DNA from: a virus
Virus record (IMG/VR): IMGVR_UViG_3300031963_000630
Span: 1-31,251 of that record
Length of the DNA stretch: 31,251 bases
Strand: one strand, 5' to 3'
Notes under the pieces: model-generated
Seen by the model: only the letters and a program-made list of their open reading frames with translations
Databases searched by the model: none
What the model was told of the DNA's origin: nothing
Shown here: positions 4,382 to 30,335 of the stretch, piece by piece
Numbering within the stretch: the stretch's first letter is position 1
How the letters are laid out: each line of letters starts with the position of its first letter
Program-made: the position numbers and the translations under genes

Positions 4382-5204
4382 TTAGTAGGGCATCCCTTCT
4401 ATACATACGACCATACTCATCTGCATCACTGATCTGACACACAGAGTAGTTTACAAATAAAGTAGCAAAGTCTGAGCCATCTGCTGTATGTGGTCCAAAC
4501 CTATTCTTAACTGGTGCAACCTTTAAAGTTTTATCTAAAGGATCAAAGCCAAGGGTAAGTATTAATGCTGGTAGTTGTGAGACCTTACCGTGAATAGCCC
4601 TTCGGTGAGGTGGGAAGTTAGTCTTGCCATACTCAGTTTGTTCGCTGACGTGGTGCAAAACCATCACACAGGCTTCAGTCTTACGAGCCATATCGTGGAA
4701 CTCCACCATAATAGCTCGCAGTCCTGCCCACTCATTATCAGTTTCAGCAGCCACATTCATCAGGTTATCAATCACAATCAACTCTGGTGGAATACCAAAG
4801 AGTTCAACATAAGCCTTGATCTCTAACTCAATATCATCTAGTGATGGTGATGAGTCAAAGACAAATTGTATGTTGGACATATTATCTAGGTGCTTATCGT
4901 AGTAATGACGGTTACTATTTAAGTTTGATTCCACCAGTAGTTGACTGTGTCCTGATAGGTGAGAGGCTGCTCTCATCATCACTGTTGCTATGTCGGTATC
5001 AGCCGAGAAAAATAAAGTTGGAACCTTTGCTTTAACTGCATAGATAAGAGCAAACATACTCTTGCCAGCATTAGGCGCAGCAGCAACCATACATACCTGA
5101 CCTCTACGAAACTTGATCTGCTTTACAGCAAGATCTTTCCATACATCAGGTAGTGGTGTTGCATTGGTAGTGCTACCACGCCACGCTCTATCTATGTTTA
5201 GCAA
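4362..5204 (-). CDS. DnaB-like replicative helicase (RecA-fold ATPase)
   Basis: This 280-residue RecA-fold ATPase has Walker A AAPNAGKS (residues 42-49), Walker B LIVID (142-146), a catalytic-histidine motif region VLHHVSE (182-188) and a C-terminal KNRFGPH (233-239) resembling the arginine-finger K-x-R-x-GP of DnaB. It lacks the N-terminal primase-interacting domain of bacterial DnaB, a common phage arrangement. It probably unwinds DNA at the fork with the split primase. The start is TTG with a GAGG site six bases upstream. It overlaps the WhiB gene end by 17 bases and the nuclease start by 20 bases, so the set is co-translated. Confidence 0.8.
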   Translation of the reverse strand: MLNIDRAWRGSTTNATPLPDVWKDLAVKQIKFRRGQVCMVAAAPNAGKSMFALIYAVKAKVPTLFFSADTDIATVMMRAASHLSGHSQLLVESNLNSNRHYYDKHLDNMSNIQFVFDSSPSLDDIELEIKAYVELFGIPPELIVIDNLMNVAAETDNEWAGLRAIMVEFHDMARKTEACVMVLHHVSEQTEYGKTNFPPHRRAIHGKVSQLPALILTLGFDPLDKTLKVAPVKNRFGPHTADGSDFATLFVNYSVCQISDADEYGRMYRRDALLSDSQVQ

Positions 5205-5460
5205 CGTAATCCTCTCTAGGAAGAGTTATCCCTCTTAGCTGTCTAATTCTTTTTCTTTTTGCCGCAGTTATGCCGCCCCAAGTACCGAAGCGTTCCTTGT
5301 TGATTCCCCATTCTGCACACTCTGCAAGGTGGGGACATATCTTGCAGACGTTTATAGCCTGTTGAGTGTGGACTCTATCTCCATCCTCTACTTCAGGAAA
5401 GAAAAATTCCACACCCACTTCGGCGCAAGCTGGGTTCTCATAGTTCCAGGGAACCCGCAT
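5188..5460 (-). CDS. WhiB-family iron-sulfur regulator
   Basis: This 90-residue protein contains the four cysteines of the WhiB [4Fe-4S] cluster: Cys12, Cys39, Cys42 (CKIC) and Cys48. They are followed by the turn motif GTWGG (59-63) and a basic C-terminal segment (AAKRKRIRQLRG) as in WhiB DNA-binding tails. WhiB proteins are essentially confined to Actinobacteria and their phages, where they bind the primary sigma factor and adjust promoter use. A phage copy could redirect or dampen host transcription. It is the strongest single host clue in the window. Confidence 0.93.
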   Translation of the reverse strand: MRVPWNYENPACAEVGVEFFFPEVEDGDRVHTQQAINVCKICPHLAECAEWGINKERFGTWGGITAAKRKRIRQLRGITLPREDYVAKHR

Positions 5461-9339: not shown

Positions 9340-11250
9340 TCATATCAATCTAATAGTAGCGATTAACAATCCACCGTATCCGGAGAATCGTCTATCACTT
9401 GGGGTTCTGTTTATAAAGTCAAGCTCTTCAATTAATCCAATGTATGACTCACCAGTTCTAAAGTCTTCTACTCTGATGGTGTCTCCTACATTCTCTATCG
9501 CTTCTAGTTGACTCAACCGATCATAGGCTGAACCTTCATAGCCCACCTCAACGCCTAAGTTATCGCTCTCGTGGTCATAGCAGAATAAAGGGTATTGGAT
9601 TATTCTTTGGCGAGGTACAGCAGGTAAAGACTTTAGTTGGTATCCAGTAAATAATGGACCCTTAGTTGCATCAGTAGATGATCTAGACATAGTAAATTTA
9701 AATGCAAGATACTCTTGCGCTGAGTTAGGATAAGGTACACCTAGTTCACTAGTTGCTGCACCTTGAGCAAAACCACCTATATTATATTCAGTATCTGCAT
9801 AATCAATAGACTTAATAGTTATAGCACCATTTGTGGTATCTATTCTAGGATTAAGTAGTTTAAATAATTTATTCTCTAATGTGTTATATCGTATAAAACC
9901 TGTTTGTAAGTAACCACTTGTTACCTTATTACTTGTTGACTCAGCGTAGATAACATTGCCAGAAGTAAAGGCTGCTCTATCTGTATTACCAAAGAAGGCT
10001 ACCTGATTAGATGCAGCAGCAACACCACTTGCTACTAGATCCCAAGCCCAAGGAAATACTAGGCTATTAGCTATTACAGTTGTAGATAGATCTACCTTTA
10101 CTAGTCCTGCCTCACCATCAATAGTGGTTGCAATATAAGCAAAGCGATCTCTAAATGCTATTGAGTTACAGGCAGCTTGATCAAATAATAAAGGACCATA
10201 CTGGATGTTACCATTTGTATCTGATACGCCTACTCTAAATCCTTTATTAGTTGCAAGGACTGCATAGGTACCAAGGTATACATCAAAGTCATTGATGCGC
10301 TCACCCTCTGGTAGATCAATAATAACTGTAGGTGTTTCAAGAGTTGGAAAACCTAATGAGTTAGAACTTGTTACATCTAAGACAATTTTAAAAACAGATG
10401 AGGATGTTCCATTAGGATCATATCCTGATATGTAGATAGCACCAGGTCCCTCTGATATAGAAGACCATACCCAAGATGAGTTGGGATGGGTAAAAAATGC
10501 AGTAGGTAATCCTGTAGAAGAAGTCCTTGTAGCATCTAGTTCATAGATAGTAGGGCCGATAGCAGCGATAAGGCGCTGCTTTACATAACGGATTGTGGCA
10601 CGAGTAACGGTAGCATTATAGATTTCAGTATCGGCAGGTGTAGCACCGACTGAACCTTTGTGAATGTGGGTACCATTAATAAAGTAATAACTAGAACCAT
10701 TAGTAGTAAGGCTATATATAGTAGATGATGTACCAGCTTGAGAAATAGTAGTAGGTGAACCAGCAGATGATGCTTGTTTCTTTAAAGCTGTACCATCTGT
10801 AAAGAAGATACAGTCATCAGTACCATCATTAACACCTATTAGTTGAGCAGGTGCTGCGCCTGAATAAAAACTAGCAGTGCTATTTAGTAGAGTAACTTGT
10901 CCTTTAGTAAAGACATCTACACCTTTAGACTCTGTATACTGGAAACGAAGTGACTCATCCTGTGCTGGTTCAAAGTATTTAATACCTGCGCCAAGATGGA
11001 ATGTTGATTGAGATCTGAACCACCAACCAGTAAGTGATTGCTCACCAGCTTCTCTGGTCTGGTCATACTGTTCTTTACGATACTTTGCAGTTACTCTACG
11101 ATAAGGTGAATCATCGGATGCTGCAATAAAGAATGGTTGACCGGCAATAGCCATATCATAATTAACACCAGTAGCTGAATAGTTTGTAGCACCAGCAGGG
11201 TTGGATAAGACATACGGGATGCCTTCGGTGATATCATCACTATAAGCCAC
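9340..11250 (-). CDS. Large tail protein, beta-propeller-like
   Basis: This 636-residue protein starts at a GTG seven bases after GGAGG. The N-terminal 110 residues contain RRVTAKYRKEQYDQTREAGE and TGWWFRSQSTFHLGAG, a phrase found in minor tail proteins of actinobacterial phages. The remaining 500 residues are a series of beta-strand repeats with Gly/Asn/Ser turns (YYFINGTHI, GAIYISGYDP, YAVLATNKGF), as in a beta-propeller. The C-terminus is a short beta domain. A tail-tip, nozzle or receptor-binding structural role is likely. Its first seven codons are nearly duplicated in the HNH gene just upstream. Confidence 0.65.
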   Translation of the reverse strand: MAYSDDITEGIPYVLSNPAGATNYSATGVNYDMAIAGQPFFIAASDDSPYRRVTAKYRKEQYDQTREAGEQSLTGWWFRSQSTFHLGAGIKYFEPAQDESLRFQYTESKGVDVFTKGQVTLLNSTASFYSGAAPAQLIGVNDGTDDCIFFTDGTALKKQASSAGSPTTISQAGTSSTIYSLTTNGSSYYFINGTHIHKGSVGATPADTEIYNATVTRATIRYVKQRLIAAIGPTIYELDATRTSSTGLPTAFFTHPNSSWVWSSISEGPGAIYISGYDPNGTSSSVFKIVLDVTSSNSLGFPTLETPTVIIDLPEGERINDFDVYLGTYAVLATNKGFRVGVSDTNGNIQYGPLLFDQAACNSIAFRDRFAYIATTIDGEAGLVKVDLSTTVIANSLVFPWAWDLVASGVAAASNQVAFFGNTDRAAFTSGNVIYAESTSNKVTSGYLQTGFIRYNTLENKLFKLLNPRIDTTNGAITIKSIDYADTEYNIGGFAQGAATSELGVPYPNSAQEYLAFKFTMSRSSTDATKGPLFTGYQLKSLPAVPRQRIIQYPLFCYDHESDNLGVEVGYEGSAYDRLSQLEAIENVGDTIRVEDFRTGESYIGLIEELDFINRTPSDRRFSGYGGLLIATIRLI

Positions 11251-11262
11251 TATTCAACCTCC
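11231..11262 (-). repeat. Direct repeat copy 1: RBS and first codons of the tail gene
   Basis: About 32 bases containing GGAGG, the spacer, the GTG start and codons 2-7 (AYSDDI) of the 636-residue tail protein. It matches the start of the HNH gene (11677-11710) at roughly 25 of 32 positions, allowing a one-base gap in the spacer. Confidence 0.7.
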
Positions 11263-11696
11263 GAATATTTATTGAGATACTCAATTGCTTTCTGTAGCAA
11301 TTCTGGATTATCTTTAAAATTACCAAGTGCTACATTGCAGTTGTGGCAAAGCACACCTCTTGGTTCATTAGTACTGTGGTTATGATCAGCGTGGAATTGT
11401 CCACGCCCACCAGGATTATCTGTGCCACATATTGCACAGACTCCGCCTTGATCGTTTAATCTTTCGTCATACAACTCTTGAGGAAAATTATATTTAGTTT
11501 TCCTTACCCAACTTCTACGAGTTTTAGTAGCTCGTACTTTATTTTCTGGTTTACTTTTATAAATTTCTCGCATAGGTTTTTCGCAATCTTTACAGGAGTA
11601 TCTATAACCACGAGTAAATTTTGATTCTTTGAAGAAGTCAGACTTTGGCTTAGTTGCTTTGCATTTATTGCATTGCATATCATCGCCATACGCCAT
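11250..11696 (-). CDS. HNH endonuclease (endonuclease VII-type), probably homing
   Basis: This 148-residue protein has a first zinc knuckle at C9NKC12 and C35KDC38. The endonuclease VII-type HNH core follows at residues 76-124: GVCAIC (87-90), FHADHNH (102-107), RGVLCHNC (117-120). It would cleave DNA; free-standing phage copies usually behave as homing endonucleases. The first residues MAYGDDM mirror MAYSDDI of the tail protein that follows, and the preceding ribosome binding site is duplicated as well. The stop TAG shares one base with the GTG of the tail gene. It interrupts a run of structural genes, which fits a mobile insertion. Confidence 0.85.
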   Translation of the reverse strand: MAYGDDMQCNKCKATKPKSDFFKESKFTRGYRYSCKDCEKPMREIYKSKPENKVRATKTRRSWVRKTKYNFPQELYDERLNDQGGVCAICGTDNPGGRGQFHADHNHSTNEPRGVLCHNCNVALGNFKDNPELLQKAIEYLNKYSEVE

Positions 11697-11820: not shown

Positions 11821-12039
11821 CTAAAGACCTAGAGCCTGTAAATCCTCAACAGTTAAACCGAGTGTTGCAAGTTTTGCCTGTGCTGCAGCCTTAGCCTGAG
11901 CCTTTGCTTCGGCTTCGGTTTTGCGATTTAACTCTGCTTCCAAATCTGCTTTTCTAATTGCAAATTCAGCATCAGTCATTTCTCTTTCAATAACTTCATT
12001 TGTTTTGACATTGTGTATTGTTATCATTGGATTAGCCAT
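11821..12039 (-). CDS. Small fibre-partner protein, paralogue C
   Basis: The protein is 72 residues: a beta-like N-terminus MITIHNVKTNEVIEREMTDA, a long Ala/Lys/Gln helix and a C-terminal LGLTVEDLQAL. It is paralogous to the products at 12689-12904 and 13808-14023. Each of the three directly follows a fibre-like gene and overlaps or abuts it, so a fibre assembly chaperone or fibre-attached subunit is likely. That role is by analogy with chaperone genes placed after tail fibre genes; no homology to a known chaperone was recognised. Confidence 0.65.
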   Translation of the reverse strand: MANPMITIHNVKTNEVIEREMTDAEFAIRKADLEAELNRKTEAEAKAQAKAAAQAKLATLGLTVEDLQALGL

Positions 12040-12689
12040 TATTTCACCCCATATAGTTTCACTGTTCCACCATTAAAATCTCCACCATTACTGAAAATGT
12101 CAACGCTAGTTATTGCATCATCTGTTTTGATAATACCGCTTAAAAATGCTCCTGTATACGCACTATTTGTATCAACACCACCACCAACATAAGTTATATT
12201 TTTATGTTTTCCAGTTTCAGCATAATTGTAAATAGTTATAATTGCAGCATTATCTGCATTAGTTCTTAATGTATTCCATCCAGGAGATATTGCAGTATCA
12301 GTTTGAATTGCTACTGCTGCGCTGTTGCTGTTATTTCTACCGCCATTTGCTTGAACATTATTATTACCATTAGGTTTGACAATTAAAGCACCATTGCTTG
12401 ATAAGTTTGTATATTTAAAAATGTACAATTCCAAATGAGTATAAGTTTGATCTATACTAGATAAAGTGACAGTAGCACCCGATAAAGAAGTTGTTGATAA
12501 TAAAGTCATTCCACCACCAGTAGCGGGAGCCGCCCATTTTAAACCTGTGGCGGTTGTGGAATCTGCTGTGAGTACTGTGTTGTTTGCACCCACCGCTAAG
12601 ACTGAGGAATCATTGGTAGCGCTACCTACAACAAGGTCACCCTTTGCTGCTGCGGTTACCGCATTACCCGATGCTTTAGTTATTGGCAT
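12039..12689 (-). CDS. Tail-fibre-like protein, paralogue C
   Basis: The protein is 216 residues. The N-terminal third carries the phrase shared by all three fibre paralogues ([38 protein letters not shown]). The middle is variable and beta-rich, and the end is FNGGTVKLYGVK. The stop overlaps the small partner ATG by one base (TAATG). It is the shortest of the three and lacks the MATGRI/MTTGRL opening of the others, starting MPITKASGNAV. A trimeric fibre or spike surface protein is likely. Confidence 0.7.
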   Translation of the reverse strand: MPITKASGNAVTAAAKGDLVVGSATNDSSVLAVGANNTVLTADSTTATGLKWAAPATGGGMTLLSTTSLSGATVTLSSIDQTYTHLELYIFKYTNLSSNGALIVKPNGNNNVQANGGRNNSNSAAVAIQTDTAISPGWNTLRTNADNAAIITIYNYAETGKHKNITYVGGGVDTNSAYTGAFLSGIIKTDDAITSVDIFSNGGDFNGGTVKLYGVK

Positions 12690-12904
12690 TAGTTACCTCC
12701 TAGTAGGATTGTTGCTTCTTCTTCTGTTAAACCCAGACGGGTTAGTAGAGCTTGGCGTTGTGCCGCCTTTGCTTGGGCTTCGGTTTGGCGTTGCGCTTCT
12801 AATTCTTGCTCCGCCTGATATTTAGTAAATTCAGCATCGTTCATTTCTCGGTCAACGATTTCATCTGTTTCTACATTATGGATTCTTATTAAAGGTTTAC
12901 TCAT
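12689..12904 (-). CDS. Small fibre-partner protein, paralogue B
   Basis: The protein is 71 residues (PLIRIHNVETDEIVDREMND, then an Ala/Gln/Glu helix and LGLTEEEATILLGGN). It aligns along its whole length with the other two partners; IHN, the acidic turn, RE and the LG(L/I)T ending are shared. Its stop overlaps the next fibre start. The charged helical middle may form a coiled coil. Confidence 0.65.
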   Translation of the reverse strand: MSKPLIRIHNVETDEIVDREMNDAEFTKYQAEQELEAQRQTEAQAKAAQRQALLTRLGLTEEEATILLGGN

Positions 12905-12905
12905 T

Positions 12906-13805
12906 TTATTTTACTCCGTAAATTAGAACTGTGCCGCTTGAAAAAGTGCCTGTATTTGGCGAAAATGTTAAACTTGAAATTGCTGCTGTATCCCAAAATG
13001 TTGCACCCGACAAATTGTTCACATAACTAGGGCTATCATAACTCACAAAACTTCCTATAAATGTTTTTTTGTAAGTAGTTGAAGCGTATTGCGTAATGTA
13101 TAAACTACCCACAAAAACATCATTAGCAGCCGCTGAACCAGTTAATTTTAATTGTTCCGTTCCGCCCATATTAGTACCACCAGAACTACCTGAACTTAAA
13201 GTGCTTATTGTTCCATATATTTTATTGGTTGCAGAATTAATTTTTACTCTAAATTCAAAACCTCCACTACATACTACATCATTTACAACTATAAACAAAT
13301 CTGTATAACTTCCACTAATACTAGAAATAGTGGTGGTTGCACCCGATAAAGTTGTAGTTGATAATAAAGTCATACCACCAGCAGCAGGGGTAGCCCACTT
13401 CAATCCAGTACTAGTGCTACTGTCAGCAGTAAGAACTGTATCGTTTGCACCAACAGCTAATACTCCTGGTGTTGATGCAGCACTTGCTGAGAGTAATGCA
13501 CCCTTAGCATTGAACTGACCTTTACTGATTGCATCAGTTAGTGGTACTAGTTCATTAGCAAATACCTCAATAATGTCTCCAGTAATAGTGGCATCTATTA
13601 AAGTAATAGTAGTTCCATTAGTTGCTGTGTAATCATTACCACGAGATAGAAGAGTACCGTTACGGTATACCTGCTCGTACCCTACTGAATATACTAGGGA
13701 TACGGAGTTGTCATCTAGCCCACTCAACGAGGTGGTACCACCTGTTGGAGCTTTAGACCAGCGAACTCCTAGGGTTGGTGTAACCCCTATTCTGCCAGTT
13801 GCCAT
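12906..13805 (-). CDS. Tail-fibre-like protein, paralogue B (longest)
   Basis: The protein is 299 residues. It opens MATGRIGVTPTLGVRWSKAP and then has an extra segment of about 80 residues (YEQVYRNGTLLSRGNDYTAT, TLIDATITGDIIEVFANELV) that resembles a small beta domain common in phage tail fibres. The family phrase [20 protein letters not shown] with KWATP follows, then a variable beta-rich middle and the shared end [11 protein letters not shown]. It would form a virion fibre. The extra domain makes it the only one of the three with a second module. Confidence 0.72.
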   Translation of the reverse strand: MATGRIGVTPTLGVRWSKAPTGGTTSLSGLDDNSVSLVYSVGYEQVYRNGTLLSRGNDYTATNGTTITLIDATITGDIIEVFANELVPLTDAISKGQFNAKGALLSASAASTPGVLAVGANDTVLTADSSTSTGLKWATPAAGGMTLLSTTTLSGATTTISSISGSYTDLFIVVNDVVCSGGFEFRVKINSATNKIYGTISTLSSGSSGGTNMGGTEQLKLTGSAAANDVFVGSLYITQYASTTYKKTFIGSFVSYDSPSYVNNLSGATFWDTAAISSLTFSPNTGTFSSGTVLIYGVK

Positions 13806-13807
13806 AT

Positions 13808-14023
13808 TTAGTTACCTTCCAGTAGTAGTTTTGCTTCGTCAGCGGTTATGCCTAAACGCTGAAGTAATGCAGCCTTAGCCTGAGCCTTTGCTTGGGCTTC
13901 AGCTATTCGCTTTTGACTTTGTATTTGATCTAATTCAAATTGAGCAAATTCATCATCAGTCGCTTCTCTATCAATAACTTCATTTGTTTCTGTATTGTGT
14001 ATTCTGATCATTGGTTTTGTCAT
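13808..14023 (-). CDS. Small fibre-partner protein, paralogue A
   Basis: The protein is 71 residues (PMIRIHNTETNEVIDREATD, then AEAQAKAQAKAALLQRLGIT and LLLEGN). It is closest to paralogue B. Its ATG overlaps the stop of fibre A by one base. Position and similarity give it the same inferred assembly role. Confidence 0.65.
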   Translation of the reverse strand: MTKPMIRIHNTETNEVIDREATDDEFAQFELDQIQSQKRIAEAQAKAQAKAALLQRLGITADEAKLLLEGN

Positions 14024-14706
14024 TATTTTACTCCGTAAATTAGAACAGTTCCACCATTAAATGAAGAACCAGAACTGCCTGAATAAACTCTAAATTCAGT
14101 TATTTGTGTGTTGCTTCTATAAGAACCAGAACTGTTTATTGATTGAATTGCATTGGTGCTATTGACAACAAAAGCACCAGCCAAATTGAAAGGCTTGTGA
14201 CTGCTTGTTGAAGCATAATTGTAGATTTCTAAAGCCCAAGCATTATTTGTATTAGAGGCAGCATATTCATCTTTATTTAATGGTATTCCAGGAAAACCGC
14301 CATCGCCTTGTGTGGAGATAGTGCCACCTGTGGCAATTTGATTTGAATATGCAACTGCATTAGTAGTGCTGTTTGGCTCTATTCTTACATAAGCATTAGT
14401 TCCTGAACTAACATCTATGTTTTTAATTATTATAAAAAGATTGTTATAGGTTTGATTTACCGAACTGATAAGTGTGCTTGTTCCTGATAAAGTGGTTGTT
14501 GATAACAAAGTCATACCACCACCAGCAGGTGCAGCCCACTTTAATCCTGTTGCTGTTGTTGAATCTGCTGTAAGTACTGTATCATTAGCACCTACTGCAA
14601 GTCTTGCGGGAGTATCAGCAGCAGTTGCTGTAATGATATCTCCCTTAGCATCTACAATTGTAGGTTGTATACCACCTTCTACCGAAGGTAATCTTCCTGT
14701 TGTCAT
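14023..14706 (-). CDS. Tail-fibre-like protein, paralogue A
   Basis: The protein is 227 residues from the ATG at 14706 ([14 protein letters not shown]), chosen because it matches the MATGRI opening of paralogue B and leaves a one-base gap after the upstream gene; an ATG at 14751 would overlap that gene by 44 bases. It shares [20 protein letters not shown] and the ending [10 protein letters not shown] with its paralogues. The middle, with [13 protein letters not shown]-type strands, differs. A virion fibre is likely. Confidence 0.7.
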
Positions 14707-14707
14707 A

Positions 14708-15037
14708 TTAAGAAATCTCGCTTCCGAAAGCTGAGAAGGACATTGTGGCACTTGATGAGTAAACTGTGATTACATCTGTAGCACCTACTGTGATACCAAG
14801 TGTTAGCGTATCTGAAGCGTTAGCAGGTAGTGATACATCATATGCAATGTACTGACTTGTTGCTAATGCTGCTCCTGCAACTCGTATCGCAATGCGATAG
14901 GTAGCAGCAGTTGCTGCTTGATTACAGACTGTAATAGTTGATACTACAGACTGTGTAGCTGCTGGTACTGTGTATAGAGTTGTTGCTGTTGCTGCGCTTG
15001 GTATGCTCTGACCAAGCACCTTGTAGTTTGTTGCCAT
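14708..15037 (-). CDS. Putative virion structural protein, beta-rich
   Basis: The protein is 109 residues: [70 protein letters not shown], and FSAFGSEIS. Alternating hydrophobic strands suggest one immunoglobulin-like or jelly-roll beta domain. Proteins of this type recur beside tail fibre genes in environmental phages. It is encoded immediately upstream of the fibre cassettes, so a collar, adaptor or fibre-base role is reasonable but unproven. Confidence 0.55.
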
Positions 15038-15060: not shown

Positions 15061-15438
15061 TTAGCCACCCATTAAAAGTAAGCTACTGATAGTTCCGCCG
15101 GTACTGCTTTCTACTCCTGCTTCAAATGCGTTTAGATCATCTGAAGTAAGAACGTGTTTAACGCTGGCACCAGCAGAATGAGCAATAGCACTAGAACCTG
15201 CTTGACCTCTAGTTATTACAAAGGTGCTTCCTGATGGACCTGATGTGATAAAGACAATCTCTTCATTAATAGTATCTGGATCTATTGCTACAGTAAACTG
15301 ACTATTTGCTACTAGAGTTACTCCACCAAGTAAGGAGTTTGCAGTTCCTGCTGCTACCGTCATAGATGTAACAGAGCTATTAATGCTAGATGCTAGTGTT
15401 GTCTCAACACTTATTGAGCTAAATAAACGAAGTGCCAT
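15061..15438 (-). CDS. Putative tail structural protein
   Basis: This 125-residue protein is rich in Ser/Thr/Ala. The phrases SMTVAAGTANSLL, FTVAIDPDTINEEIVFITSG and FVITRGQAGSSAIAHSAGAS are typical of a small beta domain in phage tail proteins that displays a hinge before a fibre. The GQAG..AHSAGA motif has a counterpart in the next upstream protein (GRGYQGTSPAPHSQYA), so the two may share a fold. Location between connector-like and fibre genes supports a tail role. Confidence 0.6.
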   Translation of the reverse strand: MALRLFSSISVETTLASSINSSVTSMTVAAGTANSLLGGVTLVANSQFTVAIDPDTINEEIVFITSGPSGSTFVITRGQAGSSAIAHSAGASVKHVLTSDDLNAFEAGVESSTGGTISSLLLMGG

Positions 15439-15447
15439 TAACCTTCC

Positions 15448-16350
15448 TTACTTTGTGTAGTGTATGCGTATTGGGTACTTGTCTTTCAACTTCAACGCCT
15501 CTTCGTTTAATCTCTGTTGGTACAGAGCGAAGATATAACGAGAAGCTGAAACACCAGCAGTGGATGGAGTCTTGCTATCAGCATTATCAGCCTCAGCAGA
15601 TGTAAGGTTAATACGACCTGCATCTAAGAATGATAGTAATTTATAGGAAGCACCAAGAGTTACTACATCCTGAGCTGATTGTGGTAAGCCAGTAACATCA
15701 GCAAAGTCATCAGTATTAGCATCTAATGTGTTAGCTGTGGTTGTGTAGTAAACTTGAACTGTTCTACCAGGTTGTACATTGTCATAAATATTTAAAGTAG
15801 CATTAGTATTAAATGTTGCACTGTTAGCAAAGTTATCTAAACGCCATCTTCTTAGTGGTAGCCACTCTTGACTTGATCCAGTAGTCTGCCAAGATATGTA
15901 CAAGACATCCTCAACATCATCTGGTAGAGCATAGGTTGTTACGGATGCGTTAAAGGTAAAAGTATATGAAGAGATAGCCCAAAGACTAGGATACAAAGAG
16001 TTGATAGTATCGTTGATAGCCTTCTTGATTGAAGTTCTTGGAAATGTAGGAGCTAAAGTAACTTGAGCATACTGCGAGTGAGGTGCGGGGGATGTTCCCT
16101 GATAGCCTCTACCAAATCCTGGTATTACGTTAAGTATGTTATTTGCTTTATCAAAAGAATCAATGAAGATAAGTTCATCATCAATTTCAATAATACCTTT
16201 AGCAAGGTTTGAAGCAGAGCCAATAGTAATGGATGTACTGGTGGTACTTAATCCAGCAGCATTAGCTACATAACTAATACGATCTTGTCGCAAGGTATAA
16301 CCTTGCAGGTTAGACTTGATCTCATCTACCATATCGTTAAGAGTGCTCAT
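15448..16350 (-). CDS. Putative connector or tail adaptor protein
   Basis: This is a 300-residue protein. The N-terminus (STLNDMVDEIKSNLQGYTLR) is helical. Residues 35-100 (ITIGSASNLAKGIIEIDDEL, GFGRGYQGTSPAPHS) contain the same beta hinge as the following gene. Residues 100-135 (PRTSIKKAINDTINSLYPSL) and the C-terminal helices (QDVVTLGASYKLLSFLDAGR) resemble helical parts of head-tail adaptors. It overlaps the glycosyltransferase gene by 14 bases. A neck or tail-tubular role fits, without a family match I can name. Confidence 0.5.
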   Translation of the reverse strand: MSTLNDMVDEIKSNLQGYTLRQDRISYVANAAGLSTTSTSITIGSASNLAKGIIEIDDELIFIDSFDKANNILNVIPGFGRGYQGTSPAPHSQYAQVTLAPTFPRTSIKKAINDTINSLYPSLWAISSYTFTFNASVTTYALPDDVEDVLYISWQTTGSSQEWLPLRRWRLDNFANSATFNTNATLNIYDNVQPGRTVQVYYTTTANTLDANTDDFADVTGLPQSAQDVVTLGASYKLLSFLDAGRINLTSAEADNADSKTPSTAGVSASRYIFALYQQRLNEEALKLKDKYPIRIHYTK

Positions 16351-17392
16351 TTATCTTCTCTCTGTAGTGTTTCAAATTGTTCTGTAATCTCTCATCCTCT
16401 GGGCTAAAGGCCAACGCCTTCTCACCGTGTTCTATTGCAGTTTTATACTCACCTAATTGCCAGGCTGCTATTGCTACTAGATCATCAGCCATATGTCCCC
16501 AAGCCCAACCTTCAGCCATAAAATCTGTTTGCTTTTCAGTTATACCTAACGCTCTTGTTGCAACTCTAAAACATTCAGGCCACTGCATCTGTTGATAATA
16601 ATGATTAGCTAGTGCTAGGACTGACTCTCTACTAGTACACTCTGTTATTGATTGCTCTAAATGTTTCTCAGCATTATCAGGATCACACTTAGCCATCATT
16701 CGCAGAGCGTATGATCTCTCTGCTTTGAATGTGGATTCCTCTAAGTATCTTTTAAAAGTCTGTAATGAATCATAATATCTTTGTTTGTAGTAATACTCTC
16801 TACCTAAGTAGTAAAGACTACGAGAACATTTTGGATCTTCATCTACTGCCATCTCAAGCATATCTAGGTATTGTTCTCTAGACTTCTCTTTATCTTGGAA
16901 ATGATGTATTGTTAAATCTATTCTTGCTCTAACTTCAGGAATTTTATAAGGAGATACCGCCTCGTGGATTGGAAACTTCCATCTATATCCTCTACGGGCG
17001 TGGATCTTAATACCATCAAAGTTTAAATCTGGTTTACCGTTTTCATCCCAACCATATACATAATTATATATTGGTCTAGTAACACCAGCCTCTAGAGCTT
17101 TAGGTAAATCCTTCTTCCAACCTTTTACTAAAACCTCATCCATATCTAGTGCTATGCAGTAATCAATATACATTGGTATTGCAGCAAGTGATGCGTTACG
17201 AGCATCATCAAAGCGCCAAGGATCTACTTTAATCTTTATAACATTAATACCTAAAGACTCAGCAATTTCTACTGTCTTATCTGTTGAACCAGTATCTGCT
17301 ATTAGTAAGTAGTCTGCATCTTTAGCTGACTCATACCATCTCTTAACGTGCTTCTCTTCATTGAGAGCAATTGTATATACAGCAATTCTCAT
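16337..17392 (-). CDS. Glycosyltransferase family 2 with C-terminal TPR repeats
   Basis: This 351-residue protein has a GT-A type catalytic domain: YTIALNEEKHVKRW (residues 6-19), IADTGSTDKTVEIAESLGI (31-49) and the metal-binding DMDE (83-86), followed by the acceptor-binding part (GYRWKFPIHEAV). Residues about 195-350 are helical repeats with TPR character (SRSLYYLGREYYYKQRYYDS and LVAIAAWQLGEYKTAIEHGEKAL). Such enzymes transfer a sugar from a nucleotide donor to protein or glycan. It lies directly next to the Thr-rich collagen-like fibre, a possible substrate. Confidence 0.85.
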   Translation of the reverse strand: MRIAVYTIALNEEKHVKRWYESAKDADYLLIADTGSTDKTVEIAESLGINVIKIKVDPWRFDDARNASLAAIPMYIDYCIALDMDEVLVKGWKKDLPKALEAGVTRPIYNYVYGWDENGKPDLNFDGIKIHARRGYRWKFPIHEAVSPYKIPEVRARIDLTIHHFQDKEKSREQYLDMLEMAVDEDPKCSRSLYYLGREYYYKQRYYDSLQTFKRYLEESTFKAERSYALRMMAKCDPDNAEKHLEQSITECTSRESVLALANHYYQQMQWPECFRVATRALGITEKQTDFMAEGWAWGHMADDLVAIAAWQLGEYKTAIEHGEKALAFSPEDERLQNNLKHYREKINEHS

Positions 17393-17406: not shown

Positions 17407-19102
<1,696 letters not shown>

Positions 19103-25460: not shown

Positions 25461-28400
25461 TTACTCTCCTAGTAATCTACTAAATATGGACATATATGCT
25501 GTCAATGTATTTTCATTAAAGGTAGATAGATTTTTTATTTTACTTAGAGTTCCACTTTTTACCAAGTCTATAACTTCTCTATCGCCACCAGTTAATTCAA
25601 ATATTTCTTTTTGTTTTACATAACCATCATAAGCCTTAACCATTTGCCTTAAAACATCTTGGGTTTCAGGCCTAATGTTTGAGAACTTAGGATCATCTAA
25701 CATTTTAGATAGATCATCTAACGCTCTAACTCTTTCTACTGCTCTTTCTCTGCCCTTGCCTAGATATTCTTCTAGCATCGGGCGACCTGCCATATAAGTA
25801 TCTTTCCAAGTGTTATATTGTTGGCGGAATATTTTTCTTATTTGAGGATCAGCAATATTAGACAGTGTTGCATCAAGTTTGTTTTTTCTTTCATAATATA
25901 TCTCAGCATCTGCTGCCGCTTGTACTTGCACTAAATGATCTTCTACTCTTTTGTTCTCTCTAAGGCCCATAGTCTTCATAGTTCTATAAGCATCGTAGGA
26001 GAAAGCACCCTCATTAGGTATTAAGAAAGCAGCGCCCTCTTTATAGGTATTAAATAACTCTTGGTTATCTTCTACGAATTTACCAGAATCTTCTGCTGAC
26101 TGAAAGATAGCTACAGTTTTACGATCTGATTCAGACACTGTATATGGAACTTGGTTAGGATATAGTTCTACCCATTTTGCCATTGCAATATCTTTATCAA
26201 AGTTATTCTTTTCGTATAACTTATACCATACTTCTTTCCAATTTGATTTACCAGAATCTTTAATCCATTCAGCCATCTCTGATTTAAGTTCAGTTTGGAC
26301 TGAAGCTGGCGCAAAGAAACCAAATGTAAATCTAAGAGCAAGGACAGATAAGGTAGCGTTCTTTAATCTCTCCCTATATGCTTCTCTTTCGGCAATAGAA
26401 GGTGCTATTAAGTTACCGCTTGCATCTAACTTTTTTGGTAAACCATTGCCAGATGCCTCTAAGTATGTAACTGCTTTACGATAAGCAGAGGCGTATTGGG
26501 AATCTCTGTCATCTTGACTCATTAGAGCAAGCCCTCTATTAACGTGTGCTGGCATTAACCTAGATAGGAATGGTTGATTTACTGCATACTTACCTAACAC
26601 CATACCTGTTATGGTATCTACGTTTTGCTGTGAACCTTGGAAAGGTAATGAAATAAGATTACCTAATGTTGTTACAGAAAGAGCCGCTAATGGTCCAGAG
26701 AATGTTGGAAGAATTGAATCTGGATTTAAAGATGGTGTTAACATCTTTACAGATCCACCAAATTGTACTGGAAATGGAACCTTAAAGTCTTGTGGTATTC
26801 CCATTCCTGCTAATGCAGTCTGCATTATTCTGTATCCAGGAGCCATCATAGGATAAACAAAATAAGCATCACCGTTTTCATCTTTTTGAATAAATCCATT
26901 ATGATCTATTCCATCAAATGTGGCTGCTGCTCTAGCAAATGCTTCTGGGTTGTACTTAGCAAGACGACCTAAACGTCTGTAGAAATCTTCTTGAGCGCGA
27001 TAGAATCTAGCCCAGTTTCGTACTGCGAATGAACCTTGAGATCTAATTAAAGGATTATCTACATAAGATAGAACCTGCATAATAGCTCTTTCTTCTGCCG
27101 CTTTAGCTAACTCTGTCTTGGCTGCTTTTACACCAGCCTGATAATTAAGAGTTCCTTTTTGAGTACCTTTAGTCCACTCATCAATAAACTTTTGTTCAAA
27201 TCCAGTACTTCGCATTTCTTTACGAATACGGATTGATTCATATAATGCCATAGGTTGACGAGAGATACGAGCATTGGCAAGACCAAGCCATACCCAACCA
27301 TTCTTCATTAGGTTGTAAGTACGTTGTGATTCTTCAACAACTGGTACAAGTTCTGGTCCAACATATTCTGCTGGTAGATCCTGAAGATCTATGCCTCTAA
27401 CATCATCTAAGCTTAATTTACCAGAGATAGTGTAAGTATTTACACCTTTGCCTAAAGGAGCAGATGGATCATACTCGCGAATCTTATCTAAAAGATTTTT
27501 GTTTATATCGCCATCGCCTCTTTTGGTAACTAATTCCTTGGCTCTAGTAAGAACTTCCCTAGCATATCTAATATCATCTATATCAAGTTCACTTACAGCA
27601 GTTGCTTCGGACTTTAATTGCTTACCCCTTGAACTTTGTAACCAATTACGAAGAATCGTCATTACCTGATCATCAGGTAAATCTGCATTTGCTAAAGCAA
27701 GAGAACCTAATTCATCGTTACCGTAAAATCTAAGACGTAATAGATATCCAATTAATGATGCTTCGCTCTTATCGCTAGTAATTGCTCTAGTGCCAAAACC
27801 TGCTACATTTGCAGATGCTCTATACTGTTTAGTAGCAGTAGTTAAATCCAGTCTAAGTGGTCTAACGTCAACACCTAAATCTTTAACTAACTGCAATACT
27901 GATTCATTATAAGTAGCACCGGTAGCAAAGTTCATACCACCTTCAGATACCTCTGCTAATAGGTTATCTATATTACCGTAAATTATCTGTTCAGTTAGTA
28001 TCTCTATAGATTCATCATCTATTACTTTAATACCAAACTGGCGTAGGAAAGTATCTATCTTACCCTTAGATAAAGATTCGGCTAGTATTTTTCTGGTTTG
28101 ACCAGCAACTCCACCCTGGATCTTATCTTCTAGTTTTGCTATTTTAGATGTGATTTCCTCTGACTTCTTAGTATCAAAGGTTAGAACATTCATACTGCCA
28201 AGTTCTTTTTTAAGTTGGAATAGTTCTTCTCTATTATTAATTATATCTAAGTCAATTGCTTTTATTCTAGCAGCGTTTACTTCTGCTTCTTTTTTATTAA
28301 TAAATCGCATCATTACGCCAAGTGGATTAGCAGCAAAGGCTTCTAATTTGTCTAATCCTTTAACTGATTGCAAGGCTGTGTTTAATCTAGTAGCAGTATA

Positions 28401-30335
28401 TCTTTGCTTTGCAAGTCCCCAAGGGCTTGTACCCATAGCCAGAGATACCATTAAATCTTCTCCAGCATTACGGATTGCATAACGAGGACCAGCTAGAGTT
28501 AAGAATGACCAACCATTGGTCATAGTTTCTACCCATTTACTATTAGCTGTGCCTAGTACAAATTTAGCAATAGTGCTTTTGCCTGCTAAGATATCTAAAT
28601 CTACAAGGCTTGGTGCAGAAACAGTGGTATTCATTTCGCTAGGTAATAACGCTTTTTTAGATAATTCACCATCACCTAAACCGTGCCGAACATTACCTTT
28701 GTTAGCGTACATTCTAGATACAGTATTTCCAGTATCTGTTAAATCTAAACCTCTTGCATTATTAGTTTGTTTTAACAAGCCTTGATAAATACTCATTTTC
28801 TTAGCCACAGAATCTGTGCCAGCATACAATTCTTTCATTAATGTTGCAAAATTTGTGGGTGCAAATATTGCTGCGAGTCGGTATATTTGATCAGGAGCAT
28901 CTTTTGCAAGAAGATCAAATTCCTCATTTTTAAACATTGGTACTGGAGTTAATGATCTTTTAATCTTATCTAAGCCAGTTGCTATTTGAAGAGAACTAAA
29001 TCTAGCAGAGCCTTTTACCCGAACACCGTCTAGTGCTTCTTTTAATTTACCTGGTTCTAATTTAACAAGGTCGTCAAGTATACCGTCTGCGTTATCAGGA
29101 GAACCAAATACTGCATTTACCAAACTAGGTGATACTTTACTAATGTCAAATACTTTATTTGTTTCGGTAAGAACTTTTCTTCTTAACTTACGAGCAGGGG
29201 TTAGACGAGGTAGAATAACTCTTTGACGAGCTATTGACCCTTCTGCTACAACTTTCATAACATCTCTGGTATTTTCAAACCAAGCCTTAGCAGTACTGGC
29301 GCTTGTAATTGGAGTTGGTCCTTTAATAAATTCATCTATTACAGAACGACCAAACTCTGGCAAAAGGACAGAAAGTTCTTTTCTTGCCTCTGCTGCTGCT
29401 TGAGGATTTACACCTTTAGACTCTATTAATTTTTTAAGAGGTACACCAGCTTGATCCCATAAAGCAATTGTTGATGGTTGATCAAAGTATTTATCAAACT
29501 TTACACCCTTGCCACCAGCTTGTGCGGCAACTACTTGCACTGAATAATTATTTAAATCGTAAAGTTTTTTCGCTTTACTTAATACAATAAATGGATCAGT
29601 ACGTAGACGAAATATTGCATCGCCAACTCCTGATACCATTTTATAAAAGAAGCCTTGTTCATACAAATCACCAGGAGTTACTACATCAATAATATTTGCT
29701 AGTTGACGACCAGGTGAGAATTTGGCAGCATTGACAGCATTTAACGCTTCATCAAATTCTTCTCTTGCTTCTCTGTCATTCTTTCCTGCATCATTTGTAG
29801 GATCTGCTATACGAAGATAATATTTTTCTTCTTCAGTAGCATTGTTTATTAGATCCGCTATATCAGCACCTTCACTGATTTTTTGTGCAATCTTGACTTG
29901 AGCATCGCCATATTTTTTAGTGGCTGCTTCAATACGGCCTGTGTTATATACTTTCTCGCCATCTTTGCCTGCTTCATCCCAAGCAAAGCCAATTTGACCA
30001 CGTTCTACTAATGGGATAGCAACAGCACGATAGGTTTGACTAACCCTATCTGCTAAAAAATTTAAACCTTTATATGCTTGATAAAAAGTATAGTGATTAG
30101 CAGTACCAAGCCAGCCTTGTTTTGGCTTCTCTTCTTCAGTTTCATTGCCAAAATTTTGCACAAGGTTTTCTTGTTGTGCTTGTGGCAAAGATTTATATAC
30201 TGCGTTAGCCGCTTCTGCTGGCATAGCAAGTAAGTTTTTATGTACAGTTAATGCTTTACTTAGGTTATCTATTCTTCTTTTATCTTGCTCTGATAACCCT
30301 GCCGCATATGCTGCTGCTTTTAAGCTCTCAGACAT
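25461..30335 (-). CDS. Giant virion protein, candidate internal/ejection protein
   Basis: This 1624-residue protein is the largest product in the window. The N-terminal third is helical and charged (SEQDKRRIDNLSKALTVHKN). A hydrophobic stretch lies around residues 610-640 (WSFLTLAGPRYAIRNAGEDL), a long coiled coil around 680-750 (ELFQLKKELGSMNVLT, IAKLEDKIQGG), and another hydrophobic segment near 1205-1240 (FSGPLAALSVTTLGNLISLP). No polymerase, protease or transglycosylase motif was recognised. Position upstream of scaffold, not after a major tail protein, argues against a tape measure and for an internal or DNA-ejection protein, but a tape-measure-like role is not excluded. Confidence 0.6.
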   Translation of the reverse strand: MSESLKAAAYAAGLSEQDKRRIDNLSKALTVHKNLLAMPAEAANAVYKSLPQAQQENLVQNFGNETEEEKPKQGWLGTANHYTFYQAYKGLNFLADRVSQTYRAVAIPLVERGQIGFAWDEAGKDGEKVYNTGRIEAATKKYGDAQVKIAQKISEGADIADLINNATEEEKYYLRIADPTNDAGKNDREAREEFDEALNAVNAAKFSPGRQLANIIDVVTPGDLYEQGFFYKMVSGVGDAIFRLRTDPFIVLSKAKKLYDLNNYSVQVVAAQAGGKGVKFDKYFDQPSTIALWDQAGVPLKKLIESKGVNPQAAAEARKELSVLLPEFGRSVIDEFIKGPTPITSASTAKAWFENTRDVMKVVAEGSIARQRVILPRLTPARKLRRKVLTETNKVFDISKVSPSLVNAVFGSPDNADGILDDLVKLEPGKLKEALDGVRVKGSARFSSLQIATGLDKIKRSLTPVPMFKNEEFDLLAKDAPDQIYRLAAIFAPTNFATLMKELYAGTDSVAKKMSIYQGLLKQTNNARGLDLTDTGNTVSRMYANKGNVRHGLGDGELSKKALLPSEMNTTVSAPSLVDLDILAGKSTIAKFVLGTANSKWVETMTNGWSFLTLAGPRYAIRNAGEDLMVSLAMGTSPWGLAKQRYTATRLNTALQSVKGLDKLEAFAANPLGVMMRFINKKEAEVNAARIKAIDLDIINNREELFQLKKELGSMNVLTFDTKKSEEITSKIAKLEDKIQGGVAGQTRKILAESLSKGKIDTFLRQFGIKVIDDESIEILTEQIIYGNIDNLLAEVSEGGMNFATGATYNESVLQLVKDLGVDVRPLRLDLTTATKQYRASANVAGFGTRAITSDKSEASLIGYLLRLRFYGNDELGSLALANADLPDDQVMTILRNWLQSSRGKQLKSEATAVSELDIDDIRYAREVLTRAKELVTKRGDGDINKNLLDKIREYDPSAPLGKGVNTYTISGKLSLDDVRGIDLQDLPAEYVGPELVPVVEESQRTYNLMKNGWVWLGLANARISRQPMALYESIRIRKEMRSTGFEQKFIDEWTKGTQKGTLNYQAGVKAAKTELAKAAEERAIMQVLSYVDNPLIRSQGSFAVRNWARFYRAQEDFYRRLGRLAKYNPEAFARAAATFDGIDHNGFIQKDENGDAYFVYPMMAPGYRIMQTALAGMGIPQDFKVPFPVQFGGSVKMLTPSLNPDSILPTFSGPLAALSVTTLGNLISLPFQGSQQNVDTITGMVLGKYAVNQPFLSRLMPAHVNRGLALMSQDDRDSQYASAYRKAVTYLEASGNGLPKKLDASGNLIAPSIAEREAYRERLKNATLSVLALRFTFGFFAPASVQTELKSEMAEWIKDSGKSNWKEVWYKLYEKNNFDKDIAMAKWVELYPNQVPYTVSESDRKTVAIFQSAEDSGKFVEDNQELFNTYKEGAAFLIPNEGAFSYDAYRTMKTMGLRENKRVEDHLVQVQAAADAEIYYERKNKLDATLSNIADPQIRKIFRQQYNTWKDTYMAGRPMLEEYLGKGRERAVERVRALDDLSKMLDDPKFSNIRPETQDVLRQMVKAYDGYVKQKEIFELTGGDREVIDLVKSGTLSKIKNLSTFNENTLTAYMSIFSRLLGE

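Follow-up and report, generated by a model that had tools for sequence, protein, structure and literature searches.

The fibre locus on the minus strand of the IMG/VR virus record IMGVR_UViG_3300031963_000630, analysed here over 31,251 nucleotides (the window), is best read as a three-slot receptor-binding array, in which interchangeable lectin-like heads are carried on slot-specific stubs and each is served by a cognate mini assembly chaperone, a reading to which we give a probability of about 0.7. ORF calling placed three fibre and partner pairs at 11821-14706, and all six genes of the units described in the first-pass annotation are present on the minus strand, flanked by a conserved adaptor gene and a conserved gene for a 636-aa tail protein (Table 1). 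Every slot encodes a fibre in which a slot-specific anchor stub carries a lectin-like head that can be exchanged; translation of this fibre is coupled to that of a partner of ~71 residues, whose N-terminal beta-hairpin would recognise the head and whose more constant C-terminal helices would oligomerise or cap it. The slot-1 fibre has an alternative GTG start 15 codons upstream, which would lengthen it to 242 aa.

Table 1. Positions of the fibre array and its neighbours in the window, and of example loci in related contigs (L numbers)
Feature	Position	Strand	Remarks
636-aa tail protein	9340..11250	-	phrog_11667, E 2e-270; constant right boundary of variable locus
Free-standing endonuclease VII-type nuclease	11250..11696	-	PF02945, E 1.6e-21; right edge of array
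Slot-3 partner	11821-12039	-	72 aa
Slot-3 fibre	12039-12689	-	216 aa
Slot-3 head	12042..12518	-	head HMM and alignment
GGGG(TG) within YGVK codons, Shine-Dalgarno of partner 3	12047..12050	-	fibre-end codons
Slot-3 stub, residues 1-57	12519..12689	-	identity to other slot-3 stubs
Slot-2 partner	12689-12904	-	71 aa
Slot-2 fibre	12906-13805	-	299 aa
Slot-2 head	12909..13382	-	AlphaFold2 all-beta sandwich, pLDDT mostly >80
GGAG within YGVK codons, Shine-Dalgarno of partner 2	12914..12917	-	fibre-end codons
Slot-2 stub, residues 1-141	13383..13805	-	identity to other slot-2 stubs
Slot-1 partner	13808-14023	-	71 aa, putative cognate fibre-head chaperone
Slot-1 fibre	14023-14706	-	227 aa from ATG
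Slot-1 head, predicted lectin-like beta-sandwich domain	14026..14523	-	head HMM and alignment
GGAG within YGVK codons, Shine-Dalgarno of partner 1	14031..14034	-	fibre-end codons
Slot-1 stub (N-terminal anchor), residues 1-61 of 227-aa fibre	14524..14706	-	identity to other slot-1 stubs
109-aa fibre-related protein	14708..15037	-	phrog_693 tail fibre; conserved left neighbour of slot 1, many relatives
125-aa fibre-related protein	15061..15438	-	first variable-locus gene in relatives
300-aa adaptor-like protein	15448..16350	-	phrog_7578, E 3e-127, SU10_adaptor; constant left boundary of variable locus
A-B-C triads (examples)	L170 2680-4491; L274; L163 16636-18509		single partner
Fibre-head invertons	L021 920-2422; L044 5481-6977; L247 5133-7500; L253 10759-14000; L259 7267-8742		phrase repeats enclosing opposed units

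The common ancestry of the three units, proposed on first reading, is supported. Their partners are homologous far beyond chance (partner 1 against the other two, E 5e-21 and 6e-15; 52% identity), and the fibres, in each of which a stub, 57-141 residues long in the window, precedes a head of ~160 residues, do share the ending LIYGVK/KLYGVK. The shared N-terminal phrase is likewise present but is not diagnostic of the fibre family, since it also occurs in 35 ORFs without a window-type head, and the fibre middles are divergent, as had been described, but not unrelated, all of them belonging to one homologous all-beta head. Over its first ~80-100 residues the slot-2 stub is similar to parts of fibres from T7-like and other marine phages, and it matches fibres of cultured cyano-, pelagi- and roseophages.

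Single-chain AlphaFold2 models present the head as an all-beta sandwich that is complete alone. Its nearest solved structures were concanavalin A-like lectin folds (GH32 C-terminal modules, galectins and legume lectins; VIA Z 6.6-8.4), with Z up to 8.4 for GH32 C-terminal modules (114 residues, 3.3 A) and 7.6 for galectin-8 (111 residues, 2.9 A), and the best Foldseek E against solved structures was 0.006. Because these matches are coherent yet lie within a middling range of VIA scores, the likeness of fold suggests, rather than establishes, that the head binds sugar. At E<=0.001 the head also matched 99 viral models, many of which are unnamed proteins of uncultured phages. The partner is modelled as a beta-hairpin (5-20), a long helix (23-57) and a short helix (61-69) at pLDDT 92, so that the earlier description of it as helical holds for its Ala/Glu/Lys-rich helices but not for the predicted hairpin at the N-terminus. 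None of the three partners hit a Pfam family above cut-off, profile searches of the PDB with head and partner gave zero matches, and Foldseek and VIA searches with the partner fold returned no convincing PDB match.

Fibre and partner genes are joined by their translation signals. The TAA stop of the slot-1 fibre overlaps the ATG of partner 1 by 1 nt, an arrangement found in 109 of 147 distinct fibre-partner pairs among the matches listed, and the GGAG or GGGG of the partner Shine-Dalgarno is supplied by the Gly and Val codons of the fibre-end YGVK. Among the matches listed, GGA or GGG encodes the Gly of the final YG in 140/146 cases, against 746/2248 elsewhere in the same heads, and the almost identical end of the fibres is therefore partly a translation signal.

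The related loci compared below are viral contigs that were found because they resemble the window or one of its relatives; they form a non-random sample in which many contigs are fragments and some are present twice, counts from the partner and fibre scans of viral contigs are lower bounds, and identity values vary by aligner. In this sample the slots have recognisable counterparts. The slot-1 stub is 95%, 89% and 87% identical to those of L135, L016 and L091, with heads at 31-41%; the slot-2 stub is 85-92% identical to slot 2 of L135 and L016 (92% in L016); and the slot-3 stub has 72-82% identity to its counterparts in six other phages (82% in L023 and L130). Same-slot stubs thus reach 82-95% identity across phages while their heads reach merely 29-42%, and the order of slots 1, 2 and 3 is kept in 11/11 loci among the matches listed. 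By sequence comparison, the slots are old and their heads exchangeable, because the stubs are slot-specific, the order is fixed and the heads are so far apart; heads and partners are drawn from a pool common to these phages.

The same comparisons bear on what is exchanged. In L181 and L190, identity is ~97% until the slot-1 stub ends and ~91% from the last partner codons onward; the single block that differs in between encodes another type of head, and another type of partner, in each of the two contigs. Among the matches listed, 41 pairs combine stub DNA at least 85% identical with heads <45% identical. L134 and L175 differ in the slot-2 head, and the L134 partner has an unrelated N-terminal part with the same C-terminal helix, while the constant partner end is often common to both sides of a swap, its C-terminal 20 residues being 90% identical in L094/L103 and L144/L130. 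For 137 window-class heads among the matches listed, correlations that are modest and were computed on related sequences link partner residues 1-28 to the N-terminal 55 residues of the head (r 0.37, 0/500 shuffles) and to the head middle (r 0.15, 0/500 shuffles), whereas the head and its own adjacent stub gave r 0.03 (N-terminal 55 residues) and 0.00 (middle); within the window class among these matches, the head and the last 20 residues of the partner showed no clear correlation (r 0.03-0.07). Physical linkage alone predicts the opposite, because the N-terminal part of the head adjoins the stub and lies ~110 codons from the partner. A counterexample is provided by L029 and L031, which share a head (91%) yet differ in the partner helix. 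Taken as a whole, these patterns identify head and partner as one exchange unit, whose left end would lie at the stub/head phrase and whose right end would lie near the conserved partner end. The proposed swapping of a variable part is therefore upheld as exchange, but not for the fibre middle alone, since the whole head and most of the partner move together.

The pairing extends well beyond the window. Among the matches listed, a partner lies directly 3' of the fibre in 174 of 186 fibres with a window-type or sister head, and the 12 partnerless fibres all belong to the sister class ending YGI... Gene order in these matches follows two grammars, with either one to three successive head-partner units or A-B-C-partner triads; counting cassettes in relatives, as the first-pass annotation had advised, gave 118 single and 10 double loci, with triple arrays in the window and L091, and longer mixed arrays are also present. 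The partner was a separate gene in every pair examined, with no natural fusion to a fibre seen. Tblastn of INPHARED gave zero matches for the partner (own and consensus sequence) at E 0.01 and 1, where low-complexity filtering may hide partners (the isolates E7 and F5 do carry a distant one), and zero for the slot-1-type head at E 0.1; across 50,697 phage records only a distantly related triad was found, in two isolates, and window-type heads and partners gave no match. The array DNA had no relatives among phage records, and the partner none in a genome-contig search. The module of head plus putative mini-chaperone is widespread in aquatic phages and so far without a name. In L187, L179 and L169 the place of the array between the adaptor gene and the gene for the 636-aa tail protein is taken by a glycine-rich fibre of 553-876 aa (..GGSGIVI.RYA), followed by proteins of 66-67 aa and 114-115 aa (phrog_7759 in L187), apparently another fibre and partner pairing; the start of this fibre, MPI.GI.AS, is shared with triad head A.

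That the partner is dedicated to its fibre, as had been suspected, is supported, and it is most likely a cognate assembly chaperone, judging by analogy with known systems. As in Mu Tfa and Pam3 gp25, which work with trimeric fibre tips, its gene lies directly 3' of the fibre and encodes a variable N-terminal and a more constant helical C-terminal part (PMC9608196); in Pam3 gp25 the variable N-terminal part binds the fibre tip and the constant helical part oligomerises (PMC9608196). The partner differs in size (~71 residues against ~160-200), in having a hairpin instead of a beta-sandwich domain, and by profile, as it matches no Pfam chaperone family. Window partners did not match XkdW (PF09636), for which the partner of the related L225 scored 19.0 against a cut-off of 24.6; given the lack of a Pfam Tfa or XkdW match, the partner is said to work like these chaperones, not to belong to their families. 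Beta-hairpin tentacles on helical bodies, as in the partner model, are known from Alteromonas phage chaperones and from intramolecular chaperones (PMC10579305). The fibre and cognate chaperone module of the Alteromonas phages A5 and V22 is, as here, common to distant phages (PMC10579305), but their fibre tips differ and their chaperone is larger; unlike intramolecular chaperones, which are fused to the fibre C-terminus, the partner is separate. It is unlikely, although it deserves more weight than the other alternatives, that the partner is instead a structural subunit which remains part of the virion, capping or bridging the tip of the fibre: one-to-one pairing of the genes and joint exchange of head and partner would fit this equally well, and the Mu and Ur-lambda chaperones are present in mature phages (PMC9608196), but the partner is a very small helical protein without an adhesin-like domain and the heads are predicted as complete sandwiches alone.

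Whether the three fibres act separately can be weighed against the triads of related loci. Among the matches listed, 40 loci (33 of them flanked by at least 1.5 kb of sequence on either side) carry three paralogous heads in an invariable A-B-C order, and further triads occur in several mixed arrays and in L274, where the set is doubled to A-B-C-A-B-C. In the tree, A, B and C heads form separate groups by position, and the nearest neighbour shares the triad position in 74 of 75 cases among these matches, the exception being an A head of L274. The median number of residues before the head is 21 for A, 7 for B and 5 for C, compared with 93 in the window class; B and C are bare heads with no anchor, which suggests from sequence that they assemble with A. 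The cultured Planktophila phages E7 and F5 (OX376640, OX376641) share the tail backbone and head superfamily of the window (PMC10202952) but have an A-B-C triad with one, distant, partner, where the window has three head-partner slots.

Phage fibres are usually homotrimers, and a hetero-trimeric receptor-binding tip would be unusual. No paper on a heterotrimeric fibre from tandem paralogues was found in the open-access literature. It is improbable that the window fibres combine into a single heteromeric fibre instead of three homotrimers; the three slots with fixed order and different stubs, and the seemingly obligate nature of the related triads, are consistent with it, but single cassettes are by far the commonest in this head class and every window fibre has its own anchor and partner. 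We consider it possible, at somewhat less than even odds, that there are two assembly modes, one with homo-oligomeric heads and their own mini-chaperones and one with an obligate hetero-oligomeric A-B-C tip, an anchored A and one chaperone. The presence of triads in the cultured E7 and F5 makes the hetero-oligomer question directly testable.

A recent tandem duplication of one cassette in the window phage, followed by divergence or swapping of the middle, had been the first explanation of the array and is very improbable. The three partners and junctions are 63-81% alike in window DNA, and the window heads rank at the 86th-93rd percentile among all head pairs. Nevertheless, cassettes of the same contig are no closer than those of different contigs (likeness within against between contigs 0.25 and 0.27 for heads, 0.46 and 0.45 for partners, among the matches listed), and in the same matches each window head has, out of 151 outside heads, 16-31 that equal or surpass its nearest sibling in closeness, the corresponding figure for the window partners being 51-76 outsiders. 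Recent triplication in the window phage was rejected on these two grounds and on the orthology of the slot stubs across phages. Mere co-transcription of an unrelated partner has in its favour that the function of the partner is a putative one, but is scarcely credible given near-universal adjacency across unrelated contigs among the matches listed and a partner that co-varies with the head, not the stub, and changes type with head type.

Many relatives have a tyrosine recombinase (PF00589) adjoining the fibre locus. One of them is L247, in which the adaptor protein is 96% and the tail protein 91% identical to its window counterpart. At several of these recombinase loci the stub/head phrase forms inverted repeats with the core GTAGCGGATAGTGC, and opposed units, mostly head plus partner, are enclosed beside the recombinase, as in the L021 layout (S> head> p> p< S< recombinase, S being the phrase). 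Among the matches listed, loci with sites facing both ways number 35 where a recombinase is present (~28 distinct contigs once seven double entries are removed), compared with 0 of the 219 loci that lack one. The open frame upstream of the site has a median of 106 residues with a start codon for forward sites and 13 residues for reverse sites, and both open in the same frame into heads of ~165 residues; inverted heads lack a stub, and 24 of 56 lack a detected partner among these matches. As read from sequence, phrase repeats, opposed units and recombinase together are a fibre-head inverton architecture, and the neighbouring tyrosine recombinase probably inverts these segments. Blocks in opposite orientation between colinear flanks (L261/L354, L253/L337, L359/L372) suggest past inversions, and a search for the same head (at least 80%) in both orientations across contigs found no contig pair. 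From the locus layout, we infer head switching by inversion in these relatives.

Constant fibre N-termini, opposed variable C-termini and an adjoining recombinase are likewise found in the Bifidobacterium Rin shufflon and in Mu Gin and P1 Cin, and the Mu invertible segment also holds fibre and chaperone. Rin is a tyrosine-recombinase receptor-binding shufflon of Bifidobacterium prophages (PMC6109161), so that both recombinase type and actinobacterial phages correspond to the relatives of the window. The Rin crossover is an unrelated 11-bp repeat, whereas the site in the relatives is the coding phrase VADS..TGLKW, and most variable heads of the relatives, compared with Rin, carry their own partner. 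Since Rin has been reported, the inversion switch is of a kind already known, and what is new is the crossover phrase and the linked partner. The relatives have the Rin-like layout of recombinase, inverted crossover sites and silent in-frame alternative heads; the window does not. Inversion within the window itself was rejected, as it has no inverted repeats, site or recombinase. Since the window units are in direct orientation, the phage should produce its three fibres simultaneously, and the earlier idea of a multi-specific phage is plausible. As in the window, the complex of Ackermannviridae includes several adjacent receptor-binding proteins; it is branched and recognises various polysaccharides (PMC11414711), and it consists of tailspikes, where the window has small lectin-like heads on slot-specific stubs. 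Together the window and its relatives show three routes by which one phage lineage would diversify receptor binding at a single locus, namely parallel slots, an invertible head switch and the A-B-C triad.

Genes for free-standing endonuclease VII or HNH nucleases are found within fibre arrays or next to them, in some cases separating A, B and C heads (L274 11397-11765 and 13904-14473; L233 6587-7129; the window gene is in Table 1), and may promote head exchange. Upstream of the window array, a 452-aa collagen-like fibre (17407-18765; G-x-x repeats, PF01391) adjoins a glycosyltransferase (16337-17392). The 1624-aa protein at 25461-30335 had zero matches at E 0.01 in a PHROG search. The window backbone is similar to those of Streptomyces phages (Flowerpowervirus and others) and of two cultured Planktophila phages, E7 and F5 (PMC10202952), and a WhiB-like regulator and a sigma-70 region-4 protein lie at 5188-5460 and 1879-2514, as in the Planktophila phages; because of this backbone likeness and these two genes, the host is likely a freshwater actinobacterium. 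A 188-aa protein at 6959-7525 matches the phage HslV-type peptidase family phrog_1040 (E 1e-25).
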